Source: Ascidia mentula (Eukaryota > Chordata > Ascidiacea > Phlebobranchia > Ascidiidae). From it: a DNA stretch of 64,000 nucleotides. Below the pieces are notes generated by a model that was given only the letters and a program-made list of their open reading frames with translations, was not told the DNA's origin and did no database searches. Positions 1,824 through 41,249 of this stretch are shown here, in pieces. Location: positions 6,073,001 through 6,137,000 of the forward strand of contig OX387197.1 in assembly GCA_947561715.1 (NCBI GenBank), in the 5' to 3' direction. Every line of letters begins with the position of its first letter. The stretch's first letter is position 1. Position numbers and translations under genes: made by a program.

Positions 1824-2588
1824 ATGGCAACGACAGCATGCATCGGTAAGAGCGTTGAACAGTAAACAGTGAAATACGAAGATGGAGGCCCAATGCTTAC
1901 ACTGAAAATTTATGAGCGTAGTATTGGTTCAAATTATTTACAAGTGCGTGTTCCAGAATCGTTTAAAAAGCTGGGACTGAAGTCTGGAAAAGTGCCGAAC
2001 CACGCCATATCATCATCAGGCAGCTGGGATCCTCAGCATGAACACCGTTTCGGACGACTGAGCACACCCAACAGACCGGGTTTACATATCGGGGCTTGAG
2101 CTGCTAAATCCAATCTCTAAATGGGAAAAAGGTTTATTGTATCTCTGACTATGTTGCAACAATTTAGATGACAGAAGTCAGTGGATTCAAGTGGATTTGG
2201 ACAGAGCGACTAAAATAACTGGAGTCATAACGCAGGGAAGAAACGGTTACGATCCATGTCAGTGGGTTACACAGTACCATATTTTATACATGGGTCCATT
2301 CGATAGGGACTGGAAAACAGTGAAGGATCCTTCGGGCAGCAAAACTGAGGTGGGATTCTTTCCTTCATATCTGTTGATATAATGCAACGTTTCGTCTTTA
2401 AGTCACTATTGTCTGAAAACACTTGTTTTAATAAACAACAGCGTTTTCATGGGAATAGCGATGCGGACACGAAGGTGACCAACGTCTTTTACTCGCCAGT
2501 GGTTGCAGTAAAACTTCGTCTGGTCCCTGTTGAGTGGAAAGATCATATAAGTTTGCGTCACGAATACTTGACGTGTTCTGAAATGTAA
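1824..2588 (+). pseudogene. Discoidin-like gene A1, broken copy
   Basis: The four exons of gene A can be placed at 1824-1845, from 1957, 2168-2349 and 2442-2588. The first domain exon has TGA (2097-2099) at the Trp codon of the conserved GAWAA motif. The donor that follows (GTATGT in A2 and A3) is altered to a non-donor sequence. Exons 3 and 4 remain open and end in SLRHEYLTCSEM like A3. With both a stop and a lost donor, a normal 168-aa product is not expected. The start exon has a good context (AACCATGG) and encodes MATTACI. Confidence 0.85.
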
Positions 2589-3687
2589 AATGACAACAGG
2601 CTACCATTTATTTAGACTTAGGCTACCATTTAAGCGGAAAGTGCTATATTTACCATTGTCATATTGCAGTCATTTTATTAATAGCCTATAAATAGTACTG
2701 CTATAAGTCTGTCTTCGATTACTTTTAATGTCGACCACACTTAAAGTAAACTACTTCAGACGTAAATAAGCATAGGATGATAACAGTAACATATAGGGTA
2801 ATATGTTTGTGAATTGTTGTCTTGGCATTTTAAAATGTGACGTTATTTTGTGTCGACGAGACCAATTGGCTGATTAGTGACAATGATTTACACACGACGT
2901 AAGTACAGCGTTCCTACAAAATCAGTGTCAGTAGTAAATGTGTTGGACCCTACCACAAAAATTCCGTTTACAATTCGTCATTCTCTTGCGTTTGTACGTC
3001 CGATATTGGTTGTTTTAAATGATGGTAAGGGAATTAACACAAGAATTTATGCCAAGGGTTTGAAATCAAATTTCTCCGTGAGCGAAATTAAAACTTGAGA
3101 AGCAACTGGAAGGCTGCACTGTGAATGTCAATAAAATAATACATACCAGGAACACAGTTAGCAACGAGTTATTCTGCCGTATGTCATATTATCACATCTT
3201 ATACCTGGACGCTATCTTAAGACCAACATAGCAGAGGAACTGTGACACGCATTTGCTCAAAAGTGTTATTACCTGATACTTTGATTTCTATTGACTCGTC
3301 TCAAACGGCGCGCTACGGCGCATTTGTTTAAGACAAAAAAAGGGGCAAGGCTGCTGAGTAGGATGAATTCGAATTAGCTATGTTCAATTAAAGCGAATCG
3401 TAACCATCGATACTAAGCAACAGCAGTTGGAAAAGCAGCTATATTCAGTTTGATAAAGTGAGTGCGGGTGCGCACGAAGTAGATAAGTTCAATGTTTGAG
3501 ATCAAGCTTACGTCAAAACTCATGTCAACGATTCCGAAATTTTATTCGCTAGACAGTTTGATTGTGAACCTACAGTACAATATTGTGTTACTGCTAGTTC
3601 GAATTTGCTGAAGAATCAACCGTTTTTTTTTATCAAGCCGAAGTTTGAATTTACTTGGTACTGTTATTCAATAGTGCAGAATCAACT
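2589..3687 (+). other. Spacer between A1 and B1, with B1 upstream region
   Basis: No gene is supported. A frame at 2877-3098 is disrupted in the unit 2 and 3 copies. Near 3300 lies a GC-rich ACGGCGCGCTACGGCGC stretch. It resembles the GGCGCACCGCAGCGC stretch found upstream of every type-C gene and may belong to the promoter. A decayed relative of the type-C upstream module follows at about 3480-3590. Confidence 0.5.
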
Positions 3688-4734
3688 ATGACAGGTAAGT
3701 AATTAATAAAACGAAAATTTGTAGTTTAACAATGTGGTTTGTACGTATGCATAACTGAATATAAAACTAAATTTCGCTTCCTAGATTTCAATGAAATTAC
3801 AGCGAATTATCATCAAATTATCATTTACGAAGTTCAATGTTAAATTTAAATGTAATCCATTCTGACTTTGTTTCGTTGTTTAAAGCTTACCACGAAGGAA
3901 CATTCCGAAAACCCCTTCAAAAACTAGGTTTAAAGTGTGGAACAATTCCTAACCACGCCATATCAGCTTCAAGCAGTTGGGACGGCCGACATGAACCACG
4001 TTACGGACGACTGAGCACACCCAACAGACCCGGTCTACATATCGGCGCATGGGCTGCCAGGACAAGTGAGTAAATATAAAGTTTTGTTGAATCTCTATAT
4101 TCACACTCCAATTACTGTTAATTTAGATAACTCTAACCAATGGATTCAAGTTGATTTGGCAAGTCCAACCAGAATAGCTGGGGTCATAACACAAGGAAGA
4201 AATGGGTCTAAACCTGAACAGTGGGTTACACGGTACAAAATTTTGTATGTTGGCCCTTCCGATTTCAACTGGAAAACAGCAAAAGATTCTAACGCAAATG
4301 GAAATGAGGTTGCCTTTCTCATCTTAATTTAGGTTATTGTCAGACCAATGAAAAAAAACCCAGCAGATTAACGTGACTAAACTATTTTAAAAATTTACGT
4401 GAAAATGTGTGACAGCACTTATAACAGATGGAAGTTACAATCGAATTAGTAATTAATTTTCTGTTCCGGTCTATCACCTCACGTTACCATGCTTGTTGTT
4501 CCTCGGCAAGTACACAGAAACTTTACTAATGTTCATTTTTTGTGCTATCGTAATTTATTCCCTCGAACACATAGTACAACGTTGTGGATTTTACAGGTTT
4601 TTTATGGCAACAGTGATAGGGACACGAAGGTGACCAACATCTTCCAGTCGCCGGTGGTTGCAGTCAAACTTCGTCTGGTCCCTGTTGAGTGGCATGGTCA
4701 TATTAGTTTGCGTCACGAGTACTTGGTATCTTAA
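3688..4734 (+). CDS. Discoidin-like (F5/8 type C) protein B1, 168 aa
   Basis: Exons are 3688-3694, 3886-4065, 4127-4308 and 4597-4734 (7+180+182+138 = 507 nt), all with GT/AG borders and phases 1,1,0. The start exon is only ATGACAG before GTAAGT. The product is a single F5/8C domain. It shows IPNHAISASSSW, GRLSTPNRPGLH, WIQVDL, GVITQGRNG, QWVTRYKILY and a C-terminal HGHISLRHEYL that resembles the end of Dictyostelium discoidin I (known family: beta-sandwich carbohydrate or lipid binding). No signal peptide is apparent if the tiny start exon is correct, so it may be cytosolic or leave by an unconventional route. The usual disulfide pair joining domain start and end is incomplete: the first Cys is present (LKCG), but the last is His (SLRHEY, where discoidin I has Cys). 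The frame is intact. The start exon is the least certain part. Confidence 0.85.
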
Positions 4735-5520
4735 GAGTAAACTTGATGTCATTTTATGAAGAATTTATTGCTTCCAGTGAATTGTGTTTGAGTCATTTCG
4801 TAATACTCAAACTCATGCGAAGTTAGAATGTAATTAGTGAACTCGTTTGAAATGGATTTCAGTTTCAGTATCTTGTTCATTGTTCTAGGTGAGATAATTC
4901 ATCAAATATGGTAAATTGGGATGTGCACAAATTCAATACACTTGGTACGTGTCAATCTGCATGCTATTTATGAAAATGTTGGGAAAACGTATTTGGACGA
5001 CTCGAATTGATCAAGTACTCAAACGATTGTTCCTAGAGATTTGTAGGCCTATTTTGGCGATGTTGTGTACGCATTTGTGAGGCGCACAATATTAATGATT
5101 AATCGTGTCTGCCGACTCTTCCATTCAGCTATATTACTTTCCGTTGTGTACACAGGCAACCTGGTGTGCTTGTTGTGTTGTACAGAACTGAAACGTTCAG
5201 TGCATCTGATGTTTACTTGTCGTAAAAATTCAATCATGTTTTGTGTGCGCAAGTAAGTTTCATTTCCTTCCTGGGCATTAGAAATTGTTACTGGCAATCT
5301 CAACAAAAACTTGTCATTGAACAATAAAACAGAACCCACACAACAAAGAAAAGCTCCTCCCAGTTGAAGAAAATAGCTGTGATAAGCATTCTGTTTTATA
5401 GTTCCAAACGAATTACTCTGCCTTATTTCACATTATCACAGACTTCGTAACATGAATTCTGTTTTAAAAACAAACAAACAGTGGTACAGCTGAAATATGA
5501 TTTCTATTGATTTGTTTGTA

Positions 5521-5542
5521 ACGGCGCACCGCAGCGCGATAG
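5521..5542 (+). promoter_or_regulatory. Conserved GC-rich box upstream of type-C genes
   Basis: GGCGCACCGCAGCGCGATAG stands out in AT-rich sequence. It recurs at about 15060, 24393, 26527, 31359, 34271 and 36422, always at the same place ahead of a type-C unit. Its constant position suggests promoter or regulatory use, but simple duplication of the flank explains it equally well. Confidence 0.25.
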
Positions 5543-5644
5543 TTATAGTAAATAAAATAAGGCAGCTGAAAAAGGTGAATTCGAATTAGTTATGTTCCAT
5601 TAAAGCCAAGTACAAAGCAACAGCAGTAGGCAAAGAAACCATCT

Positions 5645-5929
5645 TTGGGACTTAGAAGCCAGACAAGTTCACTGTATGAGAAGTTGCTTTCACCTGAAGC
5701 GCAAATAACATTCGCGTCAACTCTCTATTCATGTCGTGTAACGAATCGTGACTCGCTAGCTAGACTGATGGGAGGAAGCTGTGCAGCTGAACCGCAGACG
5801 GGCTTGTTTTCGCGACGTACGCTTTCTGCATTCCAGCAAAGACCAAAGGCTAGTGACTGTGTGGTTTCAGATTACCGCAATGGAGAGTTGGTTCATGCTG
5901 TGTTAACTAGTGAACAATTTATAGGATAG
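5645..5929 (+). other. Type-C upstream module with 94-codon ORF (copy 1)
   Basis: This module precedes each type-C gene (also 15184-15468, 24552-24806, about 29335-29627, 32293-32575, 34415-34688 and 36555-36766). In several copies it is open and ends in LTSEQFIG. Other copies carry frameshifts, and many differences between open copies change amino acids. A donor-like TATGTGAGT follows. A 5' UTR exon or promoter is more likely than a protein. Confidence 0.35.
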
Positions 5930-6002
5930 GTGGGATTTTCGCGTGGAAGCTCGTTTCGTATGTGAGTGCTATTCAGCATTAGATGAAGCCTATTACGCTT
6001 AA

Positions 6003-6440
6003 ATGCCCACTTACTGTGCAACCCCTTCAAAACTTGGTCTGAAGTGTGGAACAGTTCCTAACCACGCCATATCAGCTTCAAGCAGTTGGGACGGCCAACA
6101 TGAATCACGTTACGGACGACTGAGCACACCAAACAGACCCGGTCTACATATCGGCGCATGGGCTGCCAGGACAAGTGAGTTAATGTGAAACATTCCAATT
6201 ATTGTTTTGCCAAGTAAAAAACTTAATCACTGAAATTTAGATGATTCAAACCAATGGATTCAAGTTGATTTGGCAAGTCCAACCAGAATAGCTGGGGTCA
6301 TCACACAAGGTAGAAATGGCTTCGAACCAGGACAATGGGTTACACGATACAAAGTTTTGTATGTTGGTCCTTCCGATTTCAACTGGAAAACAGCAAAAGA
6401 TTCATACGGAAATGGAAATGAGGTTGCCTTTCATTACTAA
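6003..6440 (+). pseudogene. Discoidin-like gene C1, truncated at both ends
   Basis: A deletion of roughly 340 bp relative to C3 removed the start exon, first intron and acceptor. It fused upstream sequence directly to the first domain exon, and one A is missing from the run in CCTTCAAAAAC. The result is an open frame starting MPTYCATPSKLGLKCG in the correct phase (6003-6174), spliced to an intact middle exon (6241-6422). The last exon is missing: homology to other copies stops at about 6437 and the frame ends at TAA 6438-6440. The C-terminal third of the domain is therefore absent and the fold is probably not viable. The in-frame new start is notable. Confidence 0.75.
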
Positions 6441-6951: not shown

Positions 6952-7782
6952 TTAAGTAGACATCAAGTATTCGTGACGCAAACTAATATGACCTTTCCAC
7001 TCTTGGGCGACAAGACGAAGTTTTACTGCAACCACCGGTTCGTGGAAGACGTTGATCACCTTTGTGTCCCTATCGCTGTTCCCATGAAAAAGCTGCGAAA
7101 AATGTTAGGAAGTAGTATTTAAAACATACTAAAACAAATAAATGGTTAGAAGTTTTTTGATACTTGTGTCTTGACCAGAATGTATCCAAAAACAAGTTTC
7201 AATGAAAGTGTGAACAAAAAACCCGCTTAACGTGGATTGAAAAATTATTAACTGTTTTTTACAATAAAGGGTTAGGGAGGTGCGAAATTGTAGTTAAATA
7301 ATATAGACCCTCCCCAATGTAACAAAGTAAACCAAATTTAAACCAATTCAACAATCAACGTAAAAACCTCGTCCTTTTCGCCTGTAGAGTCCTGGACTGT
7401 TTTCCAGTCATTGTCGAAAGGGCCCATGTACATTATATTATATCGCGTTACCCATTGTCCAGGGTCGAGGCCATTTCTGCCTTGTGTAATAACACCGGTA
7501 ACTTTGGTTGGTTTAACCAAAGTGACTTGAATCCATTCACCAGGCTCATCTAAAAAACACTACCGATGTTTAATATTTGACAAATCGAGGAAATTGTGCG
7601 TCTAAGTGCTTGTCACATATACATACTGATTTTAGCAGCCCAAGCCCCGATATGCAGACCCGGTCTGTTGGGTGTGTTCAGTCGACCATAACGGGCGTGA
7701 TGTTTAGCATCCCATTGGCTTGAAGATGACAAGGCGTGGTTCGGGACTTTTCCAGACTTCAGCCCAAGTTTTTTAAATGAAT
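6952..7782 (-). CDS. Discoidin-like gene D1, inverted, start exon not found
   Basis: Read on the minus strand, the three domain exons are 7782-7627 (156 nt), 7549-7368 (182 nt) and 7092-6952 (141 nt including TAA). They have AG/GT borders and the same phases as gene A. The protein shows DSFKKLGLKSGKVPNHA, GRLNTPNRPGLHIGAWAAK, WIQVTLVKPTKVTGVITQ, WVTRYNIMYMGPFDNDW and GHISLRHEYLMST. All three domain exons are open. It is closest to gene A: the first Cys is replaced by Ser (LKSG). I could not identify the short start exon upstream (beyond 7800 on the minus strand), so the gene may be incomplete or start from a diverged exon. It is tail-to-tail with C1. Confidence 0.7.
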
Positions 7783-7930
7783 CTGAGAACAAACGTTGCT
7801 TGTAACCGTAGGCTATGCAAATTTCGACTTGACTTGGCGCAATTTCTGTTATGTCTATGTACGTGATTAAGGTGCATTTAGTGAAGCAAAAAGCCTCTGA
7901 TTTATGTCAGCAGATTTTATATTGAAAAAT

Positions 7931-8019
7931 CGATTTCGCTTGTGTAGGTTACCAAAGGCATCGTCAGTTTCTTATTCAAATAGACTGACGATGTTATGGT
8001 AACCCATAAGCGAAATCGA
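7931..8019. repeat. Hairpin element with CTGACGATG...GCGAAATCG arms
   Basis: Arms at about 7931-7967 and 7984-8019 are imperfect inverted repeats of about 35 nt (CGATTTCGCTT... against ...AAGCGAAATCG) around an AT-rich loop of about 16 nt. Each arm contains CTGACGATG, and in the right arm a small hairpin (TTATG/CATAA) lies between that motif and GCGAAATCG. The copy in unit 2 is at 17470-17558. It is likely a small non-autonomous element. Confidence 0.6.
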
Positions 8020-9883
8020 AATTATTGAAAAAATATGATCTGATGACGTAAATCATTGACTGGTTGCTTCACTATATACACCAACTAAAGTAATTCGCTG
8101 TCGCAGATAAATAAACAACGCCTAACCGAGGGCCAGATCCCTCTACAGCTATAAAGAAAGTCCTAAGTGATTAAGGTATGTACATACACCGTTTCAAACC
8201 AGTGGCTTATGGCACACTTTCGTAAAACAATAATATCACTGTACTTATGATGTCGATGATTATTCTGAGATATCGTGCTTGTTATTATTCTCACCAATAA
8301 ATGCAATTGTTGCCATAGTTGACGATGACGTGCCGATTTGATGATAAAAAATTGCCTGCTTGTCAATACAGGTTTATTCGATTTTGGTCTCAAAAAAACA
8401 CACGGTTTTAGTTTCTAAATAGCCACACAATATCAAATTATCTGATAAGTAACTGTAACGTGTTTCTTGTCACGTTTATGTGAGTTCGTATTTCACATAC
8501 TATTTGGATTTACCAGACAAATAGTTAACTTCCTTTTACAGAACATAAGCCTTTTCATTCACAAAACACCTGCCGCAACTTATTTTGTAAAAGCACAGTT
8601 ATTTATAATATTGGTTCATTCGATACAAACATGTTAGAGCGTTTAAAATTACGAAAGTTACTTCAACAAAAGTTTAACACAGTGTTTTAACACGGAGTCA
8701 CTTTTTGTGACTTTCTGCAAATTAACACAAATTCAGATTCAAAAGTGCATCTAAAATTCCATCTAATCTCAGGTCTAACATGACGGGGTTTTATACATGT
8801 TCGCAGGAAACTTGAATACGTTCCGACATTACGAAACCAGGAACCAGAATGCCAAGGATAATCAGAGCAGGGAAAAGGGCGATGGGGATTAAGCACGCGT
8901 CAGTGCGTTTGACGTAATTTCACGCCAGTTTACACACAATTCTAATAAACATAGAAGTATTTTCTTTTTTAAGTATAGTTTTGCGGGTTAGTTTGCATTA
9001 AACCAAGCGGCCCACGCGATGAATGCGTGACGAATCCATGATCGGTGCGTGTTTCGTCTAGGGAGGCGCACTGCGAGCAAGTAAAAATCAAAGGCAAGTG
9101 ATTTCTGTATCGTTACAATTCACAAAGCAATTTGTCCTAACAAAGGTTGGTGTTATTTGGGAACGACGTGCATAATAAAAGGATTTTTTTATTGTATTCC
9201 TTTATGGATGTTGTTGAGGCCTTACAGCAGACGGGACAATAGAGTTATACGCAATAAACAATTAACAATCAACAACAGCTCGCACTGTAGCAGCAGTTGC
9301 TTGCGTAATTGCCAAAGTTATCATCTCGAATATCGTCCAGTCAAACTGACTAGTAAAATAACATTCCCTAGCTTGGCAGACCAAGCACATCTCACGCAAT
9401 CACGCACAGTTCATTGTTCATGTGAAGTGAATGACTTAAGCCATTACGTAACAGTAGCTTCAGGTGAACCTATTCTATTACTAGTATAGATGTCAAATAT
9501 ATAGCACGAACAAAACCAATGCAAGTATAAAACCTCATCAAATACCGTAAGCACTTTATTTTCTATGTAACGCACGTTGACACAGCCAGGCGCAGCTAGT
9601 CAACAGATTTAAGACTTAAAGTGCATGTGACAACTTTGCGTAAAACTAAGGGTACATTTACAATGAACATATATCCAAAGTTTTGCAGACCATGCTGAGA
9701 TGATGTTATCCGACAAATATTCTCCACATGCCTAATCTAATGGTTTTCACTGCGACTTATTGTTCCGCCTGCAAAAGAAATACGCCAAAGCTTACTGCAG
9801 TTTCCCAAGTTTGTTTTACTCTGGCAACTTGTCGCCTTTTTTTTTCAGGAAACAACGGCGTTATTCTGCTAATGGCCACTTTC
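8020..9883. other. Long spacer at the right end of unit 1
   Basis: No gene is supported. The longest frame (9157-9489) has no recognisable domain. It is open in both units, but that says little because the two copies are almost identical. From 9621 a fragment of a dispersed repeat (GTGCATGTGACAACTTTGCG) appears that is also found at 49207 and 58705. Confidence 0.5.
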
Positions 9884-11353: not shown

Positions 11354-12116
11354 ATGGCAACGACAGCATGCATCGGTAAGAGCGTTGAACAGTTAACAGA
11401 AATACGAAGATGGAGGCCCAATGCTTACACTGAAAATTAATGAGCGTTGTTTTGGTTCAAATTATTTATATGTGCGTGTTCCAGAATCCTTTAAAAAGCC
11501 GGGACTGAAGTCTGGAAAAGTGCCGAACCACGCTATATCATCATAAGGCTGCTGGGATCCTCAGCATGAACACCGTTTCGGACGACTGAGCACACCCAAC
11601 AGACCGGGTTTACATATCGGGGCTTGGTCTGCTAAATCCAGTATGTAAATGGGATAAAGGTTTATTGTATCTCTGACTATGTTGCAACAATTTACATGAC
11701 AGAAGTCAGTGGATTCAATGGGATTTGGACAGAGCGACTAAAGTAACTGGAGTCATAACGCAGGGAAGAAACGGTTACGATCCAGGCCAGTGGGTTACAC
11801 AGTACCATATTTTATATTTGGGTCCATTCGAGAGGGACTGGAAAACAGTGAAGGATTCTTCGGGCAGCAAAACTGAGGTAGGATTATTTTCTTCATATCT
11901 GTTGATATAATGCAACGTTTCGTCTTTAAGTCAGTATTGTCTGAAAACACTTGTTTTAATAAACAACAGCTTTTTCATGGGAACAGCGATGCGGACACGA
12001 AGGTGACCAACATCTTTCACTCGCCGGTGGTTGCAGTAAAAATTCGTCTGGTCCCTGTTGAGTGGAAAGATCATATAAGTTTGCGTCACGAATACTTGAC
12101 GTGTTCTGAAATGTAA
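11354..12116 (+). pseudogene. Discoidin-like gene A2, broken copy
   Basis: Exon positions are 11354-11375, 11485-11640, 11696-11877 and 11970-12116. The first domain exon has an in-frame TAA (11544-11546) where A1 and A3 have a Ser codon. The acceptor before the middle exon reads TTTAC instead of TTTAG. These lesions differ from those in A1, so A1 and A2 decayed independently after duplication. The donor lost in A1 is intact here (GTATGT), and the last exon is open. Confidence 0.85.
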
Positions 12117-13225: not shown

Positions 13226-14273
13226 ATGACAGGTAAGTAATTGATAAAACGAAAATTTGTAGTTTAACAATGTGGTTTGTACGTATGCATAACTGAATAT
13301 AAAACTAAATTTTGCTTCCTAGATTTCAATGAAATTACAGCGAATTATCATCAAATTATCATTTACGAAGTTCAATGTTAAATTTAAATGTAATCCATTC
13401 TAACTTTGTTTTGTTGTTTAAAGCTTACCACGAAGGAACATTCCGAAAACCCCTTCAAAAACTAGGTTTAAAGTGTGGAACAATTCCTAACCACGCCATA
13501 TCAGCTTCAAGCAGTTGGGACGGCCGACATGAACCACGTTACGGACGACTGAGCACACCCAACAGACCCGGTCTACATATCGGCGCATGGGCTGCCAGGA
13601 CAAGTGAGTAAATATAAAGTTTTGTTGAATCTCTATTGTCACACTCCAATTACTATTAATTTAGATAACTCTAACCAATGGATTCAAGTTGATTTGGCAA
13701 GTCCAACCAGAATAGCTGGGGTCATAACACAAGGAAGAAATGGGTCTAAACCTGAACAGTGGGTTACACGGTACAAAATTTTGTATGTTGGCCCTTCCGA
13801 TTTCAACTGGAAAACAGCAAAAGATTCTAACGCAAATGGAAATGAGGTTGCCTTTCTCATCTTAATTTAGGTTATTGTCAGATCAATGAAAAAAAAACCA
13901 GCAGACTAACGTGACTAAACTATTTTAAAAATTTACGTGAAAACGTGTGACAGCACTTGTAACAGCTATAAGTTACAATCGAATTAGTAATTAATTTTCT
14001 GTTCCGGTCTATCACCTCACGTTATCATGCTTGTTGATCCCTGGGCAAGTACACAAAAACTTTACTAATGTTCATTTTTTGTGCTATCGTAGTTTATTCC
14101 CTTGAACACATAGTAAAACGTTGTGGATTTTCCAGGTTTTTTATGGCAACAGCGATAAGGACACGAAGGTGACCAACATCTTTCACTCGCCGGTGGTTGC
14201 CGTCAAACTTCGTCTGGTCCCTGTTGAGTGGCATGGTCATATTAGTTTGCGTCACGAATACTTGGTATCTTAA
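13226..14273 (+). CDS. Discoidin-like protein B2, 168 aa
   Basis: Exons are 13226-13232, 13424-13603, 13665-13846 and 14136-14273, with the same lengths and phases as B1 (507 nt in all). Every splice border and the whole frame are preserved. The product matches B1 closely, with SDKDTKVTNIFHSP in the last exon where B1 has SDRDTKVTNIFQSP. The acceptor of the last exon reads TTTTCCAG rather than TTTTACAG and is still functional in form. Spacer before it: 12117-13225, equivalent to 2589-3687, with no gene supported. Confidence 0.85.
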
Positions 14274-15541: not shown

Positions 15542-15979
15542 ATGCCCACTTACTGTGCAACCCCTTCAAAACTTGGTCTGAAGTGTGGAACAGTTCCTAA
15601 CCACGCCATATCAGCTTCAAGCAGTTGGGACGGCCAACATGAATCACGTTACGGACGACTGAGCACACCAAACAGACCCGGTCTACATATCGGCGCATGG
15701 GCTGCCAGGACAAGTGAGTTAATGTGAAACATTCCAATTATTGTTTTGCCAAGTAAAAAACTTAATCACTGAAATTTAGATGATTCAAACCAATGGATTC
15801 AAGTTGATTTGGCAAGTCCAACCAGAATAGCTGGGGTCATCACACAAGGTAGAAATGGCTTCGAACCAGGACAATGGGTTACACGATACAAAGTTTTGTA
15901 TGTTGGTCCTTCCGATTTCAACTGGAAAACAGCAAAAGATTCATACGGAAATGGAAATGAGGTTGCCTTTCATTACTAA
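15542..15979 (+). pseudogene. Discoidin-like gene C2, truncated
   Basis: It has the same structure as C1: a fused first exon at 15542-15713 beginning MPTYCATPSK, a middle exon at 15780-15961, and no last exon (TAA at 15977-15979). The shared deletion breakpoints show that the damage predates the duplication of this half of the unit. The flank 15980-16490 is the junction sequence also seen in unit 1. Confidence 0.75.
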
Positions 15980-16490: not shown

Positions 16491-17321
16491 TTAAGTAGAC
16501 ATCAAGTATTCGTGACGCAAACTAATATGACCTTTCCACTCTTGGGCGACAAGACGAAGTTTTACTGCAACCACCGGTTCGTGGAAGACGTTGATCACCT
16601 TTGTGTCCCTATCGCTGTTCCCATGAAAAAGCTGCGAAAAATGTTAGGAAGTAGTATTTAAAACATACTAAAACAAATAAATGGTTAGAAGTTTTTTGAT
16701 ACTTGTGTCTTGACCAGAATGTATCCAAAAACAAGTTTCAATGAAAGTGTGAACAAAAAACCCGCTTAACGTGGATTGAAAAATTATTAACTGTTTTTTA
16801 CAATAAAGGGTTAGGGAGGTGCGAAATTGTAGTTAAATAATATAGACCCTCCCCAATGTAACAAAGTAAACCAAATTTAAACCAATTCAACAATCAACGT
16901 AAAAACCTCGTCCTTTTCGCCTGTAGAGTCCTGGACTGTTTTCCAGTCATTGTCGAAAGGGCCCATGTACATTATATTATATCGCGTTACCCATTGTCCA
17001 GGGTCGAGGCCATTTCTGCCTTGTGTAATAACACCGGTAACTTTGGTTGGTTTAACCAAAGTGACTTGAATCCATTCCCCAGGCTCATCTAAAAAACACT
17101 ACCGATGTTTAATATTTGACAAATCGAGGAAATTGTGCGTCTAAGTGCTTGTCACATATACATACTGATTTTAGCAGCCCAAGCCCCGATATGCAGACCC
17201 GGTCTGTTGGGTGTGTTCAGTCGACCATAACGGGCGTGATGTTTAGCATCCCATTGGCTTGAAGATGACAAGGCGTGGTTCGGGACTTTTCCAGACTTCA
17301 GCCCAAGTTTTTTAAATGAAT
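16491..17321 (-). CDS. Discoidin-like gene D2, inverted, start exon not found
   Basis: Minus-strand exons are 17321-17166, 17088-16907 and 16631-16491. It is almost identical to D1; one visible change, in the middle exon, turns GEWIQV into GKWIQV or a close equivalent only by position, so the protein should be essentially the same. Its reading frame and splice borders match D1. As for D1, no start exon was recognised upstream. Confidence 0.65.
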
Positions 17322-19369
17322 CTGAGAACAAACGTTGCTTGTAACCGTAGGCTATGCAAATTTCGACTTGACTTGGCGCAATTTCTGTTATGTCTATGTA
17401 CGTGATTAAGGTGCATTTAGTGAAGCAAAAAGCCTCTGATTTATGTCAGCAGATTTTATATTGAAAAATCGATTTCGCTTGTGTAGGTTACCAAAGGCAT
17501 CGTCAGTTTCTTATTCAAATAGACTGACGATGTTATGGTAACCCATAAGCGAAATCGAAATTATTGAAAAAATATGATCTGATGACGTAAATCATTGACT
17601 GGTTGCTTCACTATATACACCAACTAAAGTAATTCGCTGTCGCAGATAAATAAACAACGCCTAACCGAGGGCCAGATCCCTCTACAGCTATAAAGAAAGT
17701 CCTAAGTGATTAAGGTATGTACATACACCGTTTCAAACCAGTGGCTTATGGCACACTTTCGTAAAACAATAATATCACTGTACTTATGATGTCGATGATT
17801 ATTCTGAGATATTGTGCTTGTTATTATTCTCACCAATACATGCAATTGTTGCCATAGTTGACGATGACGTGCCGATTTGATGATATAAAATTGCCTGCTT
17901 GTCAATACAGGTTTATTCGATTTTGGTCTCAAAAAAACACACGGTTTTAGTTTCTAAATAGCCACACAATATCAAATTATCTGATAAGTAACTGTAACGT
18001 GTTTCTTGTCACGTTTATGTGAGTTCGTATTTCACATACTATTTGGATTTACCAGACAAATAGTTAACTTCCTTTTACAGAACATAAGCCTTTTCATTCA
18101 CAAAACACCTGCCGCAACTTATTTTGTAAAAGCACAGTTATTTATAATATTGGTTCATTCGATACAAACATGTTAGAGCGTTTAAAATTACGAAAGTTAC
18201 TTCAACAAAAGTTTAACACAGTGTTTTAACACGGAGTCACTTTTTATGACTTTCTGCAAATTAACACAAATTCAGATTCAAAAGTGCATCTAAAATTCCA
18301 TCTAATCTCAGGTCTAACATGACGGGGTTTTATACATGTTCGCAGGAAACTTGAATACGTTCCGACATTACGAAACCAGGAACCAGAATGCCAAGGATAA
18401 TCAGAGCAGGGAAAAGGGCGATGGGGATTAAGCACGCGTCAGTGCGTTTGACGTAATTTCACGCCAGTTTACACACAATTCTGATAAACATAGAAGTATT
18501 TTCTTTTTTAAGTATAGTTTTGCGGGTTAGTTTGCATTAAACCAAGCGGCCCACGCGATGAATGCGTGACGAATCCATGATCGGTGCGTGTTTCGTCTAG
18601 GGAGGCGCACTGCGAGCAAGTAAAAATCAAAGGCAAGTGATTTCTGTATCGTTACAATTCACAAAGCAATTTGTCCTAACAAAGGTTGGTGTTATTTGGG
18701 AACGACGTGCATAATAAAAGGATTTTTTTATTGTATTCCTTTATGGATGTTGTTGAGGCCTTACAGCAGACGGGGCAATAGAGTTATACGCAATAAACAA
18801 TTAACAATCAACAACAGCTCGCACTGTAGCAGCAGTTGCTTGCGTAATTGCCAAAGTTATCATCTCGAATATCGTCCAGTCAAACTGACTAGTAAAATAA
18901 CATTCCCTAGCTTGGCAGACCAAGCACATCTCACGCAATCACGCACAGTTCATTGTTCATGTGAAGTGAATGACTTAAGCCATTACGTAACAGTAGCTTC
19001 AGGTGAACCTATTCTATTACTAGTATAGATGTCAAATATATAGCACGAACAAAACCAATGCAAGTATAAAACCTCATCAAATACCGTAAGCACTTTATTT
19101 TCTATGTAACGCACGTTGACACAGCCAGGCGCAGCTAGTCAACAGATTTAAGACTTAAAGTGCATCCAAAGCTTACTGCAGTTTCCCAAGTTTGCTTTAC
19201 TCTGGCAACTTGTCGCCTTTTTTTTCAGGAAACAACGGCGTTATTCTGCTAATGGCCACTTTCCGCAAACAGTTTGCTGCCGTGACGTACTAAGTTCAGA
19301 ACAAGAGACTTCTGAGGGAAATCTAGCCTTTTGCCTACATAGTTCAGACAGTTAAGTCAACAAAACAGC
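17322..19369. other. Right-hand spacer of unit 2
   Basis: It contains the second hairpin element (17470-17558) and sequence almost identical to 8020-9620. It lacks the dispersed-repeat fragment that unit 1 has at 9626-9790. No gene is supported. Confidence 0.5.
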
Positions 19370-20718: not shown

Positions 20719-21485
20719 ATGGCAACGACAGCATGCATCGGTAAGAGCGTTGAACAGTTAACAGTGAAATACGAAGATGGAGGCCCAATCCTTACACTGA
20801 AAATTTATGAGCGTAATTTTGGTTCAAATTATTTATATAAGTGTGTTCGCAGAATCCTTTAAAAGGCTGGGACTGAAGTCTGGAAAAGTGCCGAACCACG
20901 CCATATCATCATCAGGCAGCTGGGATCCTCAGCATGAACACCGTTTCGGACGACTGAACACACCCAACAGACCGGGTTTACATATCGGGGCTTGGGCTGC
21001 TAAATCCAGTATGTAAATGGGAAAAAGGGTTTATTTTATCTCTGACTATGTTGCAACAATTTAGATGACGGAAGTCAATGGATTCAAGTGGATTTGGACA
21101 GAGCGACTAAAGTAACTGGAGTCATAACGCAGGGAAGAAACGGTTACGATCCAGGCCAGTGGGTTACACAGTACCATATTTTATATATGGGTCCTTTCGA
21201 TAGGGACTGGAAGACAGTGAAGGATTCTTCGGGGAGCAAAACTGAGGTAGGATTCTTTTCTTTATATCTGTTGATATAATGCAACGTTTCGTCTTTAAGT
21301 CATTATTGTCTGAAAACACTTGTTTTAATAAACAACAGCTTTTTCATGGGAATAGCGATGCGGACACGAAGGTGACCAACATCTTTCACTCGCCGGTGGT
21401 TGCAGTAAAACTTCGTCTGGTCCCTGTTGAGTGGAAAGATCATATAAGTTTGCGTCACGAATACTTGACGTGTTCTGAAATGTAA
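20719..21485 (+). CDS. Discoidin-like protein A3, 168 aa, the intact type A
   Basis: Exons are 20719-20740, 20853-21008, 21065-21246 and 21339-21485 (22+156+182+147 = 507 nt), phases 1,1,0, with clean GTAAGA, GTATGT and GTAGGA donors. The start has a strong context (AACCATGG) and gives MATTACIESFKRLG. The F5/8C core follows: LKSGKVPNHAISSSGSW, GRLNTPNRPGLHIGAWAAK, WIQVDLDRATKVTGVITQ, QWVTQYHILYMGPFDRDW and DHISLRHEYLTCSEM. No signal peptide is visible. The N-terminal Cys of types B and C is Ser here, while a Cys appears near the C-terminus (LTCSEM), so the two types have opposite single cysteines. A1 and A2 carry lesions at sites where this copy is intact. It is probably the only working type A in the window. 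Confidence 0.87.
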
Positions 21486-22561: not shown

Positions 22562-23608
22562 ATGACAGGTAAGTAATTGATAAAACGAAAATTTGTAGTT
22601 TAACAATGTGGTTTGTACGTATGCATAACTGAATATAAAACTAAATTTTGCTTCCTAGATTTCAATGAAATTACAGCGAATTATCATCAAATTATCATTT
22701 ACGAAGTTCAATGTTAAATTTAAATGTAATCCATTCTAACTTTGTTTTGTTGTTTAAAGCTTACCACGAAGGAACATTCCGAAAACCCCTTCAAAAACTA
22801 GGTTTAAAGTGTGGAACAATTCCTAACCACGCCATATCAGCTTCAAGCAGTTGGGACGGCCGACATGAACCACGTTACGGACGACTGAGCACACCCAACA
22901 GACCCGGTCTACATATCGGCGCATGGGCTGCCAGGACAAGTGAGTAAATATAAAGTTTTGTTGAATCTCTATTTTCACACTCCAATTACTATTAATTTAG
23001 ATAACTCTAACCAATGGATTCAAGTTGATTTGACAAGTCCAACCAGAATAGCTGGGGTCATAACACAAGGAAGAAATGGGTCTAAACCTGAACAGTGGGT
23101 TACACGGTACAAAATTTTGTATGTTGGCCCTTCCGATTTCAACTGGAAAACAGCAAAAGATTCTAACGCAAATGGAAATGAGGTTGCCTTTCTCATCTTA
23201 ATTTAGGTTATTGTCAGATCAATGAAAAAAAACCCAGCAGATTAACGTGACTAAACTATTTTAAAAATTTACGTGAAAACGTGTGACAGCACTTATAACA
23301 GATGGAAGTTACAATCGAATTAGTAATTAATTTTCTGTTCCGGTCTATCACCTCACGTTACCATGCTTGTTGTTCCTCGGCAAGTACACAAAAACTTTAC
23401 TAATGTTCATTTTTTGTGCTATCGTAATTTATTCCCTCAAACACATAGTAAAACGTTGTGGATTTTACAGGTTTTTTATGGCAACAGCGATAAGGACACG
23501 AAGGTGACCAACATCTTCCAGTCGCCGGTGGTTGCCGTCAAACTTCGTCTGGTCCCTGTTGAGTGGCATGGTCATATTAGTTTGCGTCACGAATACTTGG
23601 TATCTTAA
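22562..23608 (+). CDS. Discoidin-like protein B3, 168 aa
   Basis: Exons are 22562-22568, 22760-22939, 23001-23182 and 23471-23608, with all borders intact and 507 coding nt. It differs from B1 at a few residues (WIQVDLTSP instead of WIQVDLASP, SDKDTK instead of SDRDTK). With B1 and B2 this makes three preserved type-B copies, in contrast with one of three for type A. Confidence 0.85.
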
Positions 23609-24998: not shown

Positions 24999-26005
24999 AT
25001 GTCAAGTAAAGCAAGAAGTAGAGGATCTCTTGGTAACATATTGCTAAACTGAACATATTCATTTTTTGCAACATCTTGCATTTTTGTGCATCAAAATAAA
25101 TTTTGCTTCTTTACTTATAATTACAGGCCAAAAACCTATAATTTACGATAATTATAATCAAAATTCGATGTAATCCTTTCTGTGTTTGTTCTGTTGTTTA
25201 CAGTTTACCAAGAAAGAACGTTCGTAAAACCCCTTCAAAAACTTGGTCTGAAGTGTGGAACAGTTCCTAACCACGCCATATCAGCTTCAAGCAGTTGGGA
25301 CGGCCAACATGAACCACGTTACGGACGACTGAGCACACCAAACAGACCCGGTCTACATATCGGCGCATGGGCTGCCAGGACAAGTGAGTTAATGTGAAAC
25401 ATTCCAATTGTTGTTTTGCCAAGTAAAAAACTTAATCACTGAAATTTAGACGATTCAAACCAATGGATTCAAGTTGATTTGGCAAGTCCAACCAGAATAG
25501 CTGGGGTCATCACACAAGGTAGAAATGGCTTCGAACCAGGACAATGGGTTACACGATACAAAGTTTTGTATGTTGGTCCTTCCGATTTCAACTGGAAAAC
25601 AGCAAAAGATTCATACGGAAATGGAAATGAGGTTGCCTTTCATTACTGTTTTAAACTATGTTAAAAGTTGACGTGAAAACATGTGACAGAATTTATAACA
25701 GCTAGAAGTGACAATCCAAATAGTAATTGGTTTTCTGTTCTGGTCTATCACCTCACGTTATCATGTTTATTGATCCTCGGCAAGTACACAGAAACTTTAC
25801 TGAAGTTCAGCATTTTGCTATCGTGATTTAGGCTTTTGAACACAGCAAAAAAATAAGGTTTTTACAGGTTTTGTACGGCAACAGCGATAGGGACACGAAG
25901 GTCACCAACATATTTCAGTCGCCGGTTGTTGCAGTCAAGCTTCGCCTGGTCCCTGTTGAGTGGCATGGTCATATTAGTTTGCGTCACGAGTACTTGGTAT
26001 CTTAA
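24999..26005 (+). CDS. Discoidin-like protein C3, 168 aa, intact type C
   Basis: Exons are 24999-25005 (ATGTCAA before GTAAAG), 25204-25383, 25450-25631 and 25868-26005, total 507 nt. The protein begins MSIYQERTFVKPLQKLGLKCG and has the type-C loop RNGFEPGQWVTRYKVLY and the C-terminus HGHISLRHEYLVS. The first donor is weaker than in type B (A/GTAAAG). This copy shows what C1 and C2 lost: the start exon, first intron and last exon. It is the first of a run of four intact type-C genes. Confidence 0.83.
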
Positions 26006-35899: not shown

Positions 35900-36421
35900 G
35901 AGTTCACTTGATGTCTTATTTTGGAAGTGTGTTGCTTCCGGTGAATTGTGTTTAAATCGACATCATTTCGTAACACTTAAAATCATTCTACATTAACGAT
36001 TTATCGTGTCTGCTGACTTTTCCATTTAGTTGTGTTACTTTCCTTTGTGTACACAGGCAACCTAAAATGTTTTATTGTGTTGTGCAGAACTGAAACGTTC
36101 AGTGCATCTGATGTGTACTTGTCGTAAAAATTCAATCATGTTTTGTGTGCGGAAGTAAGTTTCACTTTCCTCCTGGGCATTACAAATTGTTACTGGCAAT
36201 CTCAACAAAAAGTTGTCAACGAACAATAACACAGAACCCATACAACAAAGAAAAGCACTTCCCATATGATGAAAATAGCTGTGATAATCATTCTGTTTTA
36301 TAGTTCTAAACGAATTATTCTGCCTTATTTCACATTATCACAGACTTCGTAACATGAATTCTGTTTTAAAAACAAACAAACAGTGGTACAGCTGAAATAT
36401 GATTTCTATTGATTTGTTTGG

Positions 36422-36766
36422 AACGGCGCACCGCAGCGCAATAGTTATAGTAAAATATAAGGTAGCTGAAAAAGGTGAATTCGAATTAGTTGTGTTCTAT
36501 TAAAGCTAAGCCTACAAAGTAACAGCAGTAGGCAAAGAAACCATAATGTTTTGTGCTTAGAGGGCAGACAAGTTCACTGTATGAGAAGATGCTTTAAACC
36601 TGAAGCGCAAATAACATTCGCGTCAACTCTCTATTCATGTCGTGTAACGAATCGTGACTCGCTAGCTAGACTGATGTGAGGAAGCTGTGAAGCTGAACCG
36701 CAGACGGGCTTGTTTTCGCGACGTACGCTTTCTGTATTCCAAAGAAAGACCTAACGCTAGTGACTG
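36422..36766 (+). pseudogene. Remnant of a seventh type-C unit (upstream part only)
   Basis: The GC-rich box and upstream module are present up to GCTAGTGACTG, where PIF/Harbinger sequence begins. The gene body that should follow is missing. Homology resumes at 39721 with sequence that lies downstream of C6. Confidence 0.75.
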
Positions 36767-36892
36767 CAGCCCTGTTTACATGAACGGTTTGCGAGCGAGC
36801 TTGCGGCATGGAGCCGTGAAGAACTAACAGACCATAACGAGCGAGCTTCGGGGCTCAATTTACATGAGCGCGCGAAATTCGGTTTTCGCGAA

Positions 36893-38650
36893 ATGAATAT
36901 GGCGGCAACAGATAGTTTATTGGAAGTTAGGGCTCTTTTACTTCATAATTATCAAAAACAGTGCAAACGAAGAAAGGCTTTGCTGTTGTTACATGTCAAT
37001 GCGTTACTTTCTCACAATCGAAGACTTGGTCGGCCATGGCGATTACAGAGGTGAGGTATATGGGCCAGACTTTATGCTTCCTGGAAGTGGAATACTGTGC
37101 TTCGTTTTGAATCTTGGTTAAGTTAAATGTTATTTTTATTTGTTTTAGGTCAGGGCAATGGTGGAATCTTATTGTTCCCGGTTTTAATGATTCCCAGTGG
37201 TTGACCCATTTCAGATTGAGTAAAGAATGCTTTGCGTGTTTGTGTGAAGAAGTGTGGGATGATAAAAAACCTGGTAGGGACGATTACAGATAAATTGTAT
37301 TCCCCAAATAGATTGTACATAAGTCTTAAATTGTTTTATTTTCAGATGACTTAACAATAGCACTGTTTAAACTGGCATCTTCTGCCGAATATAGGACTGT
37401 TGCTGAACTTTTTGGAGTTAGTTCGTCTTCTGTTCACAATTGTTTGAAGTGGTAAGAATAAATTTGAACATCAATTGTATTTAGTACTTGTGCAATATTT
37501 GTAGGCTTTGTTTTGCACTTTGCAAAAAAGTGAAAACGTTTATTTCCATCCCACTACTTGATGATGCAGTTAAAATTGCAAAACGTATTGAAGCAAATCA
37601 CCAATTTCCTCAGGTATGATACATACAACACTTTTGCTTTTCTGTAACACACAACATATTTTTAGGTGTTTGGTTGCATTGATGGCACACATATTGCTGT
37701 AACTGCGCCCAGCATTGGAAAAAACGATTCCACAAACAGAAAGGGTTTGGATTCCCTCATATTACAAGGAGTTGTTGATGACAGTGGAAAGTAGCTGAGT
37801 AAAACTTTTAAGTCAATCTTTCAGACAGCTCTTTTAAAGATGATTTTATTTTTGTCAGAAAAATATATTCCGCCCTGAAAAGGGCATCATCAGTTTCTGC
37901 AAAGTGTACAAAACAGCGCAAAATAACTAAGTAGAAGTCTGCCACATAAAGGAAAGTACCTTAATAAAAATTAAAAAAATTAAAAATTAGAGAATGCAAA
38001 TAAAAACCTGGACAGTGGAAAGTAAACAATTTGCTTTATAGCATATTAGGCTAAAACGCAAAAAAATCATTTTAATTTGTAGATTTATTGACATCAGTGT
38101 AAAAATGCCTGGCTGTTGTCATGACGCTTCCGTCTTCAAAGAATCTGGACTTTTTAAAAATTCTTCGCAGTTGCCTAAGGTAATATGTCAAAAAATGATA
38201 AACAACATACTTACAAAGTGGTCTGATTTTTGTACGCTCCAGTTTACGTTGGAGGTGTAGAGTGCCCATTGATGATATTGGGCGACCCAGCTTAATTACC
38301 CCCTCTTGCCTTGGCTTATAAAACCATTTATTGGAACAAATTTGTCTCCAGATAAGAAGTCATTTAATTGTTATCATAGTAGTGTAAGAATTGCTGTTGA
38401 ACATGCTTTTGGAAGATTAAAAGCTCAATGGAGAACAATGGGAAAAAAAATTGATGCTGTATTGCATAACATTTGTGAAGCTTCAAACATACCTATTCCC
38501 GCCTGTAGCCAAACAACACAAAGCACTTTACTTTCACAGCCTGTGTGCACACCACGTGCAACTCAAACAGGGAGCGGTGCTACTTGCAGAAATGCACTGC
38601 AGCAACACATAAACCAAAATTTACCACTGCGTCAATCTTCAAGGTAATAA
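36893..38650 (+). pseudogene. PIF/Harbinger transposase (DDE), degenerate
   Basis: Exons fit at 36893-37050, 37149-37273, 37346-37451, 37505-37613, 37666-37790, 38083-38179 and roughly 38241-38640, joining in phase through 38179. Landmarks are WWNLIVPGFNDSQWLTHFRL, the helix-turn-helix-like AELFGVSSSSVHNCLKW, GCIDGTHIAV (first catalytic Asp), PGCCHDASVF, LGDPA (second Asp) and VRIAVEHAFGRLKAQWR (catalytic Glu). Directly after LGDPA four extra bases shift the frame, and the segment between AQWRTMGKKID and VLHNICE is shorter than expected. Intron 5 has been invaded by a 217-bp element. The enzyme is therefore dead in this copy. Confidence 0.85.
37780..38024. mobile_element. Small hairpin element inside the transposase gene, 14-bp duplication
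   Basis: GACAGTGGAAAGTA occurs at 37780-37793 and 38011-38024 and flanks about 217 bp that interrupts the transposase. The minus strand of the insert reads CTGATGATGCCCTTTTCAGG then GCGGAA. This is a CTGATGA box, a stable GCCCT/AGGGC hairpin and GCGGAA, the same layout as the elements at 7.9 and 58.5 kb. Confidence 0.6.
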
Positions 38651-38921
38651 TCGCTATTTTTTTGTGCTCTTTTTGTTATTGGATTTTGGAAATACATGAC
38701 AGTAAAAAGAATAGAATTATTGTTATAAATACAGTCTAGTGGAAAGTGGTATCACAGTTGCAAAAATATGTTGGACGTACAGTAAATGAGCACACAAAGA
38801 AAATAAAAGAACATTTGAATGAATAGCAATGTACAATGCGAAGAGAACAGTGGCATGCAGAACTTCCTGAAAAACGAAAAAAAGGAACAGTAATAAACGC
38901 TGAACTACAAAGCATGCAAAC

Positions 38922-39519
38922 TCATTTACTTCGTTGTTCAATCGCACTGACAAGGCGATCAAACATTTTTTCGGTCACTTCCCTGTCTTTCTGTGACTCC
39001 TCTCTAAAGGCTGCCACTATGTTTGTCAGATGATATTCTGTGGCTGTTTCTGAAGACAAAAGTTAAAACTTAGCTCTTACAGGATTGCATAGAAATACAA
39101 CATTCGACTTACTTCGTTTTCTAGTGTGACCACTCGTTTGTTTCTGTCCATCAGACAGAAGTTTTGTGCTCTCTGCTGCCAAGGACTCTTTGGAGCTGTT
39201 TGAAGAAGTGCTCATGTCATTTTCCTCGTTGGATGAAATATGATCCTCCTCACAAGATTCCAATATTAATGTTATCATCTCCTCCCCTAATGTAGCATTG
39301 TATTGTAACCAAATAGAAAGTAAAATAGTGACACAAAATTACCTTGTTTTGGCACAGGTTTAAATTTGGGTGTTTCAGATGTGTCTATCCCACTTTCAGC
39401 CTTCATTGCCTAAACGAAATTATATGTTTATGATACTTGCAAGTTTAATTTACTTACTTGAGCTCTTGGTCGACCTGATAGTAAGTTATGTAGCTGCTGC
39501 CAACTGCAAGCTCGAGCCC
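38922..39519 (-). pseudogene. Harbinger Myb/SANT-like accessory protein, N-terminus missing
   Basis: Minus-strand exons fit at 39519-39458, 39409-39343, 39286-39113 and 39049-38922. They carry ACSWQQLHNLLSGRPRAQ (the W...GRP end of the SANT-like domain), an acidic Ser-rich linker (ISSNEENDMSTSSNSSKES) and a C-terminal helix ending VTEKMFDRLVSAIEQRSK. In complete elements such proteins bind the transposon ends and help import the transposase. The DNA-binding N-terminal part lies beyond the lost right end. Confidence 0.65.
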
Positions 39520-39720
39520 CTGATTTATAAATGTCTTTTCTTTTTGTATAGTAGGCTACTGTTTTTTAAGATTTATCACGAACTTCCTCCCTGAAAAAAA
39601 GATTCAAGTTTTTCACAAATTTATATATAGCCTGTAGTTTTCTTACCATGAATACATTAATCCTTGATTTTGAAGACTATAAAAAGAATTTGGTTTCTGA
39701 TTCCCTTTCCATCAATTAAA

Positions 39721-40340
39721 GTCTTAATTTGGAAGTGTGTTGCTTCCAGTAAATTGTTTTTAAATCGACATCATTTCGTAACACTGTTTTTGTTAGCTGC
39801 TTTATTCAATATGGGTTGATTGGAATATGCACCCAACATACCTAAAATTCCCCAATGTTTAAATGACATATCAAAAAACTTTAAAGCAAATTCAATGGCC
39901 AAGTGTCAATCTGCATACTAATTCTGAAAATGTTGGAAAAACTTATTTAAACGACACAAATTGAGTCATGTATTCAAACGATTGTTCCAAGAGACTTGGT
40001 AGCCTATTTTGGCGTTCTTGTGTACGCATTTGTGAGGCGCACAACATTAATGATTAATTGTGTCTGCTATCTTTTCCATTCAGTTTTATTACTTTTCGTT
40101 GTGTACAAAGACAACCTAATGTGTTTTATCGTGTTCAGAATTAAAACGTTCCGTGTATCTGATGTGTACTTGTCGTAAAAATTTAATCACGCTTCTTGTG
40201 CGCAAGTAAGTTTCATTTCCTTCCTGGGCATTATAAATTGTTACTGGCAATCTCAACAAAAACTTGTCAATAAACAATACAGAACCCAACAAGTAAAAGC
40301 TCCTCCCAGTTGATGAAAGTAGCCGTGAAAAGCATTCTGT
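39721..40340 (+). pseudogene. Downstream flank of the lost seventh array unit
   Basis: It matches the 3' flank of C6 (TTTGGAAGTGTGTTGCTTCC) and then the flank of gene B (TTGTGTACGCATTTGTGAGG). This confirms that an array unit was destroyed between 36767 and 39720. No coding exon remains. Confidence 0.7.
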
Positions 40341-40370
40341 GTTGAACTAACCATAGTACTTGCTGATGCA

Positions 40371-40428
40371 CTGTTTTGATAAGAGACAGACTGTTTTGTT
40401 TTAACAATCAGTCTCTTATCAAAACAGT
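40371..40428. repeat. Perfect 22-bp inverted repeat with short loop
   Basis: CTGTTTTGATAAGAGACAG...CTGTCTCTTATCAAAACAG-type arms are separated by a loop of about 14 nt. The sequence CAGTCTCTTATCAAAACAG is close to the tail of the element at 58482-58638, so this looks like two such tails head to head. Confidence 0.6.
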
Positions 40429-41099
40429 AGTACAGAAGTACTGTAGATGTAGACCAGAGACTGACACGGGGCATTGAAGAAATTGTCAAGCAATATAGAG
40501 TCTCCAGAGTTTCAAAAATGCTGTTATTCAAAAAACACTAATATAACTAAAAAGCGTTCATCATACCGTCGTTAAATGTTTGTTTTCAATTAAATGTCTG
40601 CATTTAGTCTACTTTGATTGTGATGTTTATTATTGGCTATGTTTTTGCTTAAGATTAACAGGCCACACAGCTCTACCACAACAACAGCCAAGCTGACAAA
40701 AGGGTTGGTAACGTCTGCCGCGAGTCGATGGTCGTGGTTTAATGTCTGTCTGTCCACGTTATGGGCTGCGGTCATATGGATTTGTAGAACAAATACGTCT
40801 TTGGAGATGTGGAACTATGCCATAGAATATGTAAGAAAAGGTAAGCGAAATTAGTATATTCGTCGTTATCATGCTGCATGTGTACGAATCAAAAGACTTC
40901 CTAATAGACGGCACGGATTGTGGGGCATCGCTTTCCAAGCATGCTGCGACGCTTGACAACATCGTCCGTTATAATCCCGTGCTGTTGTCGAATATTCCAA
41001 ATCTCCCTCCAACGGAAAATTGATTAAAATCTTCACAATAAACAAATCTCACCTGTTTTCTGATCCGTGGGTATCTTTTATAATGTATGTCCTACTTAG

Positions 41100-41249
41100 C
41101 TCTTTTCCGGAAACAGCGATGCGGTCACCAAGGTGAGAAACATCTTCTCTCGGCCGGCTATTGCAGTAAAACTCCGTGTGCTTCCAAAAGAATGGCACAG
41201 TCATGTCAGTTTGAGACACGAATATTTGGTGTCTAATGTAAGCGAGTAA
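41100..41249 (+). pseudogene. Orphan last exon of a divergent discoidin gene
   Basis: After a good acceptor (TCCTACTTAG) the frame reads LFSGNSDAVTKVRNIF, then AIAVKLRVLPKEW, then SHVSLRHEYLVSNVSE and stop, in phase 0 like exon 4 of the other genes. It is clearly more diverged than any other copy. No WIQV-type middle exon or LxxG-type first exon is visible in the 1.5 kb upstream; a frame at 40633-40854 is unconvincing. It is an old relic, or the end of a gene whose other exons I cannot recognise. Confidence 0.65.

Follow-up and report, generated by a model that had tools for sequence, protein, structure and literature searches.

The stretch of DNA considered here, referred to as the window, comprises 64,000 nucleotides of chromosome 1 (C1) of the solitary ascidian Ascidia mentula (GenBank assembly GCA_947561715.1, contig OX387197.1; G000:C1:6073001-6137000 in our genome coordinates). 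It holds a tandem array of short genes of the host animal, each of which codes for a single F5/8C (discoidin) domain. The main point of this report is the contrast between this array and the F5/8C genes of the same genome which are of secreted type and bear cysteines at both ends of the domain. The gene models of the array possess neither a signal-like exon shared by the copies of any type nor the cysteine pair, and these models suggest that the products are leaderless. The array belongs to a known domain family and is not a new kind of system.

Organization of the array

The exons were mapped by tblastn with the exon pieces of one copy and gene models were then built by homology. This yielded 14 multi-exon genes and a lone last exon in the window. 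A search with PF00754 returned 14 exon-2 matches, and the count of about fourteen genes in a first-pass annotation of this DNA is thus borne out. The eight intact genes counted there are too few, since the inverted D1 and D2 are intact as well: 10 of the 14 copies (A3, B1, B2, B3, C3, C4, C5, C6, D1 and D2) combine a start exon with an uninterrupted reading frame and keep GT/AG at each of the six splice sites. The splice dinucleotides of these ten are GT/AG at 60 of 60 sites.

The copies fall into four types, A (A1-A3), B (B1-B3), C (C1', C2', C3-C6) and D (D1 and D2, inverted). Their order is A-B-C'-D twice, followed by A3-B3-C3-C4-C5-C6 and the lone exon 3 (Table 1). Identity is 98.1% between units 1 and 2 (7.8 kb) and about 95% for the third unit; overall the units in the window are 94-98% identical. 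The exon phases (1, 1, 0) are the same in all types.

The first-pass annotation let the array span positions 1824..41249. In fact it starts far outside the window and extends about 45 kb upstream, where nine further copies lie at C1:6,027,706-6,071,043. Five of these are intact and have a start exon (Dc, B0, D0, Dd and De). In A0 the core is open but a recognisable start exon is missing, Da and Db contain stops, and C0' is truncated with a frameshifted exon 2. The whole array then consists of 23 copies plus the lone exon; 15 of the 23 are intact and eight are broken, truncated or without a start exon, in agreement with the strong copy turnover noted earlier. The description of the remaining members as broken, truncated, inverted or reduced to one exon holds for A1, A2, C1', C2' and the lone exon 3, yet the inverted D1 and D2 are intact.

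Table 1. Members of the F5/8C array in the window, by window position.
Copy	Position	Strand	State, product and exons
A1	1824..2588	+	broken: stop in exon 1, donor 1 lost
B1	3688..4734	+	intact, 168 aa; exons 3688-3694, 3886-4065, 4127-4308, 4597-4734; all GT-AG
C1'	6009..6422	+	truncated: exon 1 (5' part replaced) and exon 2 only; no start exon, no exon 3
D1	6952..8316	-	intact, inverted, 176 aa; exons 8316-8295, 7812-7627, 7549-7368, 7092-6952
A2	11354..12116	+	broken: stop in exon 1, acceptor 2 lost
B2	13226..14273	+	intact, 168 aa
C2'	15548..15961	+	truncated, form as C1'
D2	16491..17855	-	intact, inverted, 176 aa; exons 17855-17834, 17351-17166, 17088-16907, 16631-16491
A3	20719..21485	+	intact, 168 aa; exons 20719-20740, 20853-21008, 21065-21246, 21339-21485
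B3	22562..23608	+	intact, 168 aa
C3	24999..26005	+	intact, 177 aa (168 with inner donor); exons 24999-25032, 25204-25383, 25450-25631, 25868-26005
C4	29827..30836	+	intact, 177 aa
C5	32768..33764	+	intact, 174 aa; 9-nt in-frame deletion in start exon
C6	34892..35899	+	intact, 177 aa
Lone exon 3	41109..41234	+	GNSDAVTKVRNIF...HEYLVS; neither exon 1 nor exon 2 found nearby

Products and start exons

The spliced products match PF00754 over the whole domain at 85-92 bits in types A, B, C and D (cut-off 28.2), with E = 4.2e-26 (C), 4.9e-26 (B), 7.9e-25 (A) and 5.5e-24 (D). The profile search thus confirms the discoidin assignment. As the first-pass annotation had it, the domain stands alone: Pfam finds no second domain in the products, i.e., no EGF and no H-type lectin module, and the proteins end right after F5/8C. 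A galectin domain is absent from the Pfam matches of the products at E up to 0.01 or 0.5; these comprise F5/8C families only. The claim of conserved phases and a conserved product of 168 aa stands for the phases, whereas that length applies to type B and A3 only. D1 and D2 code for 176 aa, type C for 174-177 aa (168 via an inner donor), and the array-wide range is 168-179 aa. The products are basic (pI 8.9-9.9). Among solved chains, lactadherin C2 gives the best single-domain match (2e-26); for factor V the value is 9e-32 with its two C domains taken together and 1e-17 with C2 alone, and for discoidin-1 it is 7e-13.

In the models no Met codon stands in frame within exon 1, so that translation must start upstream and a start exon is required. 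Such exons are conserved within and between types: those of A and D begin ATGGCA, those of B and C read CAGAATCAACTATG or close to it. The in-frame deletion of 9 nt in the start exon of C5 is as expected of coding sequence.

Chance open reading frames are ruled out by Pfam E-values of 5.5e-24 or better, by the conserved splice sites and by the substitution ratios between types given below. A viral or bacterial origin was likewise rejected; a scan of viral contigs and genome contigs (one alignment, one scan each) contained no relative, and the genes have introns.

Signal exon and cysteine pair

In canonical extracellular F5/8C proteins a pair of cysteines at the domain ends has a disulfide role, and an F5/8C domain with this pair is generally extracellular, as in factor V and the lactadherin family. 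The array was compared with its relatives in the genome in both respects, signal exon and cysteines.

For the 16 array copies with an open core, 1.6 kb upstream were scanned for exons of 30-150 nt with phase-1 donors. Within this range no signal-like exon common to all copies of any array type exists, consistent with the gene models, which have no signal peptide. Both positive controls of the scan were recovered, MVNTFVIFFAVVGLC (L029, 6.578 Mb) and MPLSAAGIVVVVIVVAIC (L028, 6.486 Mb). These are the two nearest other listed copies, about 0.37-0.47 Mb off on the same chromosome, and both have a clear signal-peptide exon. A weak signal-like candidate, MFVNCCLGI.., lies upstream of B1, B2 and B3 and is missing in B0; A3, C3 and C6 each have a single weak candidate which is not shared.

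Elsewhere in the genome ten short-domain F5/8C copies were read closely (L002, L003, L004, L023, L028-L031 and two from the L017-L022 array). All ten are of secreted type, and all ten have one Cys just ahead of [L/M]GL, where the domain begins, and another at the domain's end (EYLxC-stop). In the array the first Cys is replaced by Lys or Gln (FKKLGL, FKRLGL, LQKLGL) and the last one, in types B, C and D, by Ser. Type A keeps a C-terminal Cys in a longer tail (EYLTCSEM), and the first Cys of the pair is absent. The same picture emerges from the genome as a whole. Of HEYLxC-stop there are 68 matches (reversed control, 1), none of them in the array. RHEYLxS occurs 19 times (reversed control, 2), and 17 of these matches lie in the array, namely the 16 non-A copies with an exon 3 and the lone exon. 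Of the two others, inspected by eye, one has no discoidin frame and the second looks like what we take, from its motif, to be a ubiquitin protease.

Some observations on the relatives may be added. L030, related to an array at C1:4.60-4.66 Mb, has Pfam matches to LCCL, EGF and F5/8C, and the array itself shows the same residues. The latter (G000:C1:4604001-4664000, L017-L022) is a second tandem F5/8C array, with LCCL- and EGF-like exons and two mostly alternating subtypes about 4 kb apart. The copies on C69 (L002-L004) have a stretch before the domain which by eye is CCP-like. Eight HEYLTC-stop matches lie at a spacing of about 1.04 kb in G000:C72:14712261-14719563 (L034); by eye the first two show no F5/8C-like frame of at least 35 aa. 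On the mitochondrial contig (L010, L011), AGA and AGG in the COX1 frame stand, by eye, at sites which we take to be conserved Gly positions, as in the ascidian mitochondrial code.

Selection and ligand loops

The ratio of nonsynonymous to synonymous substitution rates (dN/dS) was calculated according to Nei-Gojobori for 13 of the 16 open cores (B0, D0 and D2 left out) and for five pairs with broken copies. Between types it is 0.11-0.28, well below the value near 1 that the first-pass annotation had considered. The anciently diverged types (dS 0.6-1.1) give 0.18-0.28, and B versus C gives 0.11-0.18. The family is therefore under purifying selection between types. Within types the values lie mostly between 0.1 and 0.35 and rest on few changes; B2-B3 with 0.62 (three changes) and type D with up to 0.70 are exceptions.

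The ligand loops were compared in six representative cores aligned to factor V C2 with loop limits of our choice. The spike-1 Trp is kept in five of the six clades and the spike-2 Arg in all six. The tip residue of spike 3 reads Y, S, F, L, F and P over the six clades, i.e., Y/F/L in four of them, and is one of the two most variable positions. In simulations of factor V a Leu at this tip inserts into the membrane (residue roles from excerpts of PMC11257402). Positive selection in the ligand loops was considered and rejected: over these six cores spikes 1 and 3, taken together, do not vary significantly more than the other positions (p = 0.06), and the variation in spike 2 lies below that of the remaining domain.

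Phylogeny

A tree was calculated from the 16 open cores, nine secreted-type A. mentula domains and two factor V domains. Supported groups are type A, type D and the pair B plus C. A clade of the array copies with L029 is neither rejected nor supported (approximately unbiased, AU, test; p = 0.146). The factor V branches are long, and the root is therefore unsure.

Neighbourhood of the array

Beside the last intact copy, positions 36800-39700 look like the remnant of a Harbinger-type DNA transposon; one short piece matches DDE_Tnp_4, though weakly and below the cut-off (E 0.085). A direct duplication of 3.1 kb (41810-44938 and 46032-49112, 95-96% identical) holds small minus-strand frames, four of which were tested; none has a Pfam match above cut-off. 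At 51425-51731, 307 bases form their own inverted repeat (87%), perhaps a small inverted-repeat element. Two long open frames in tandem (52780-56361 and 59498-63070; 1193 and 1190 aa, DNA about 93% identical) have a DUF294-type nucleotidyltransferase match and TPR repeats.

Interpretation

Our preferred explanation, which we advance tentatively and at somewhat less than even confidence, is a tandem family of leaderless single-domain F5/8C proteins, most simply derived from secreted F5/8C proteins such as those at other sites of the genome; its members would be cytosolic or unconventionally released and would bind membranes. The signal-peptide exon would have been lost and the tiny start exon would now stand in its place. 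The cysteine pair which links both ends of the domain outside cells would have been lost, too. With both gone the products would stay in the reducing cytosol or exit unconventionally. There they may bind a membrane surface through the three loops of the domain. Lactadherin C2 expressed in cells binds phosphatidylserine of the inner leaflet (excerpts of PMC12565826); hence an F5/8C domain of this kind is able to function in the cytosol. The proteins would probably serve to sense or bind membranes which are damaged or altered, in the way of galectins and, according to a proposal, of the Dictyostelium discoidins. The ligand may be a lipid or a glycan. The direction of change, from secreted to leaderless, is taken from the general rule that the cysteine-paired domain is extracellular, not from the tree.

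A more far-reaching proposal is that an extracellular, disulfide-closed F5/8C module was converted to a leaderless cytosolic family and expanded to 15 intact genes as a sensor of membrane damage or danger, an independent parallel to galectins and amoebal discoidins. This we consider possible, though less likely than not. A role in recognition or conflict, which the first-pass annotation had suggested, may apply; the gene-wide dN/dS is low and the loop enrichment falls short of significance.

Several observations weigh against the preferred explanation. The start exons have only 7-34 nt and were found by conservation alone. A-type copies retain a Cys near the C-terminus and have another one in their start peptide, MATTACI. 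A basic charge does not set the products apart, as several secreted relatives have a similar pI. Spike 1 does not reach the length that it has in factor V C2, and at the tip of spike 3 type B has Ser and Dc has Pro. The AU test neither rejects nor supports a single clade of the array copies (p = 0.276); the best tree joins the nine secreted A. mentula rows, weakly (38/89), and does not separate the array from all other rows at one branch. Descent of the leaderless copies from secreted ones is thus not established by the tree. Finally, pairs with broken copies resemble intact pairs: A1-A3 gives 0.32, A2-A3 0.48 and A0-A1 0.46 versus 0.34 for A0-A3, and Da-Dd and Db-Dd both give 0.71. Because broken and intact copies are alike within types, constraint is demonstrated for the history between types, not for each recent copy.

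The strongest alternative overlaps with this explanation and differs in the ligand. The proteins could be leaderless, galectin-like glycan lectins which bind luminal glycans on broken vesicles, or microbes upon release, with no role for lipids. The precedent is the Dictyostelium discoidins, cytosolic proteins which are secreted without a signal peptide and for which a galectin-like function was suggested (excerpts of PMC5758549), and the highly variable spike-3 tip is as expected if specificities differ. The closest solved relatives, however, are C2 domains of the lactadherin/factor V kind, and the loop variation is not significantly enriched. We regard an exclusive glycan role as possible, though doubtful.

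The products might also be ordinary secreted proteins after all, with a true signal-peptide first exon farther upstream or shared, or with several domains spliced together. The relatives read outside the array are of secreted type, the start exons are very short, and the scan was confined to a limited distance, donor phase and exon length. Against this stands that both positive controls were found by the same scan while no type has a common signal-like exon; the candidate of B1-B3 is missing in B0 and those of A3, C3 and C6 are unshared. Adjoining copies are no more than a few kb apart, and those of one type are inverted. As read from the gene models, exon 2 (phase 0 end) cannot join the next copy's exon 1 (phase 1 start) in frame, so that the joining of several domains into one protein, raised earlier as a possibility, is not supported. 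The Ser-ending form, moreover, is confined to the array. Secretion by a conventional route appears unlikely.

Still less probable is the view that copy number changes mostly neutrally in a gene which can be dispensed with, and that the recent duplicates have not decayed yet. The near-identity of the units in the window, the eight defective copies, the similar dN/dS of broken and intact copies within types and the 0.5-0.7 reached in type D are all compatible with it. It does not agree with 0.18-0.28 between the old types and 0.11-0.18 for B versus C. An assembly artefact in part, i.e., two haplotypes of a heterozygous animal set in tandem, is very improbable: units 1 and 2 are indeed nearly identical and purge_dups was used in the pipeline against haplotypic duplication, yet this is a HiFi and Hi-C assembly with QV 64.9 (both from excerpts of PMC11109543), the three window units differ by 2-6% with a fourth one upstream (not compared as DNA), and the lesions of A1 and A2 differ.

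Comparison with known systems

In literature on discoidin or FA58C in ascidians and tunicates and on expansion of discoidin domains, no such array was described in the titles and opening lines of abstracts among the matches listed; the excerpts of PMC12373286 do not mention discoidin.

The nearest comparison is with the secreted-type F5/8C genes of the same genome (L028 and L029; L030 and the C1:4.60-4.66 Mb array; L002-L004 on C69). The domain is the same, e1, e2 and e3 align, the motifs GVITQG and LRHEYL are common to both, and several of the secreted-type genes are also arranged in tandem. They differ from the array by a signal exon (L028, L029) or extracellular modules (LCCL and EGF in L030) and by a Cys at both domain ends.

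The C2 domains of factor V and lactadherin are the best matches among solved structures, and the spike-1 Trp and the spike-2 Arg are largely or fully kept in the array. C2 domains which bind phosphatidylserine have an aromatic residue in spike 1, a basic one in spike 2 and a hydrophobic tip of spike 3. Factor V and lactadherin C2 are extracellular and are parts of larger proteins, whereas the array products are single domains and would be leaderless. In the alignment with factor V, spike 1 of the array is four residues shorter and the spike-2 region four longer. Galectins would resemble the array as leaderless cytosolic lectins of a small multigene family, a working analogy taken from excerpts of PMC5758549, yet they belong to an unrelated domain family.

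Discoidins I and II of Dictyostelium are a leaderless multigene family with an F5/8C-type (DS) domain, and the array would, by its gene models, be another such family. Their second domain is an H-type lectin; in the array no such second domain was found, and the lineage is a different one. The gene models of the array have no signal peptide, and their products may be cytosolic. The Dictyostelium discoidins have two carbohydrate-binding domains; they occur in large amounts in the cytosol, are released from the cell with no signal peptide, and were proposed to function like galectins (excerpts of PMC5758549). If our gene models hold, secreted-type, cysteine-paired F5/8C genes and a leaderless array without the pair exist side by side in one chordate genome, which is the most interesting part of these findings. 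A switch between outside and inside of the cell could then be traced exon by exon, and chordates would have, in this array, a counterpart to the leaderless Dictyostelium discoidins that have been debated for so long.

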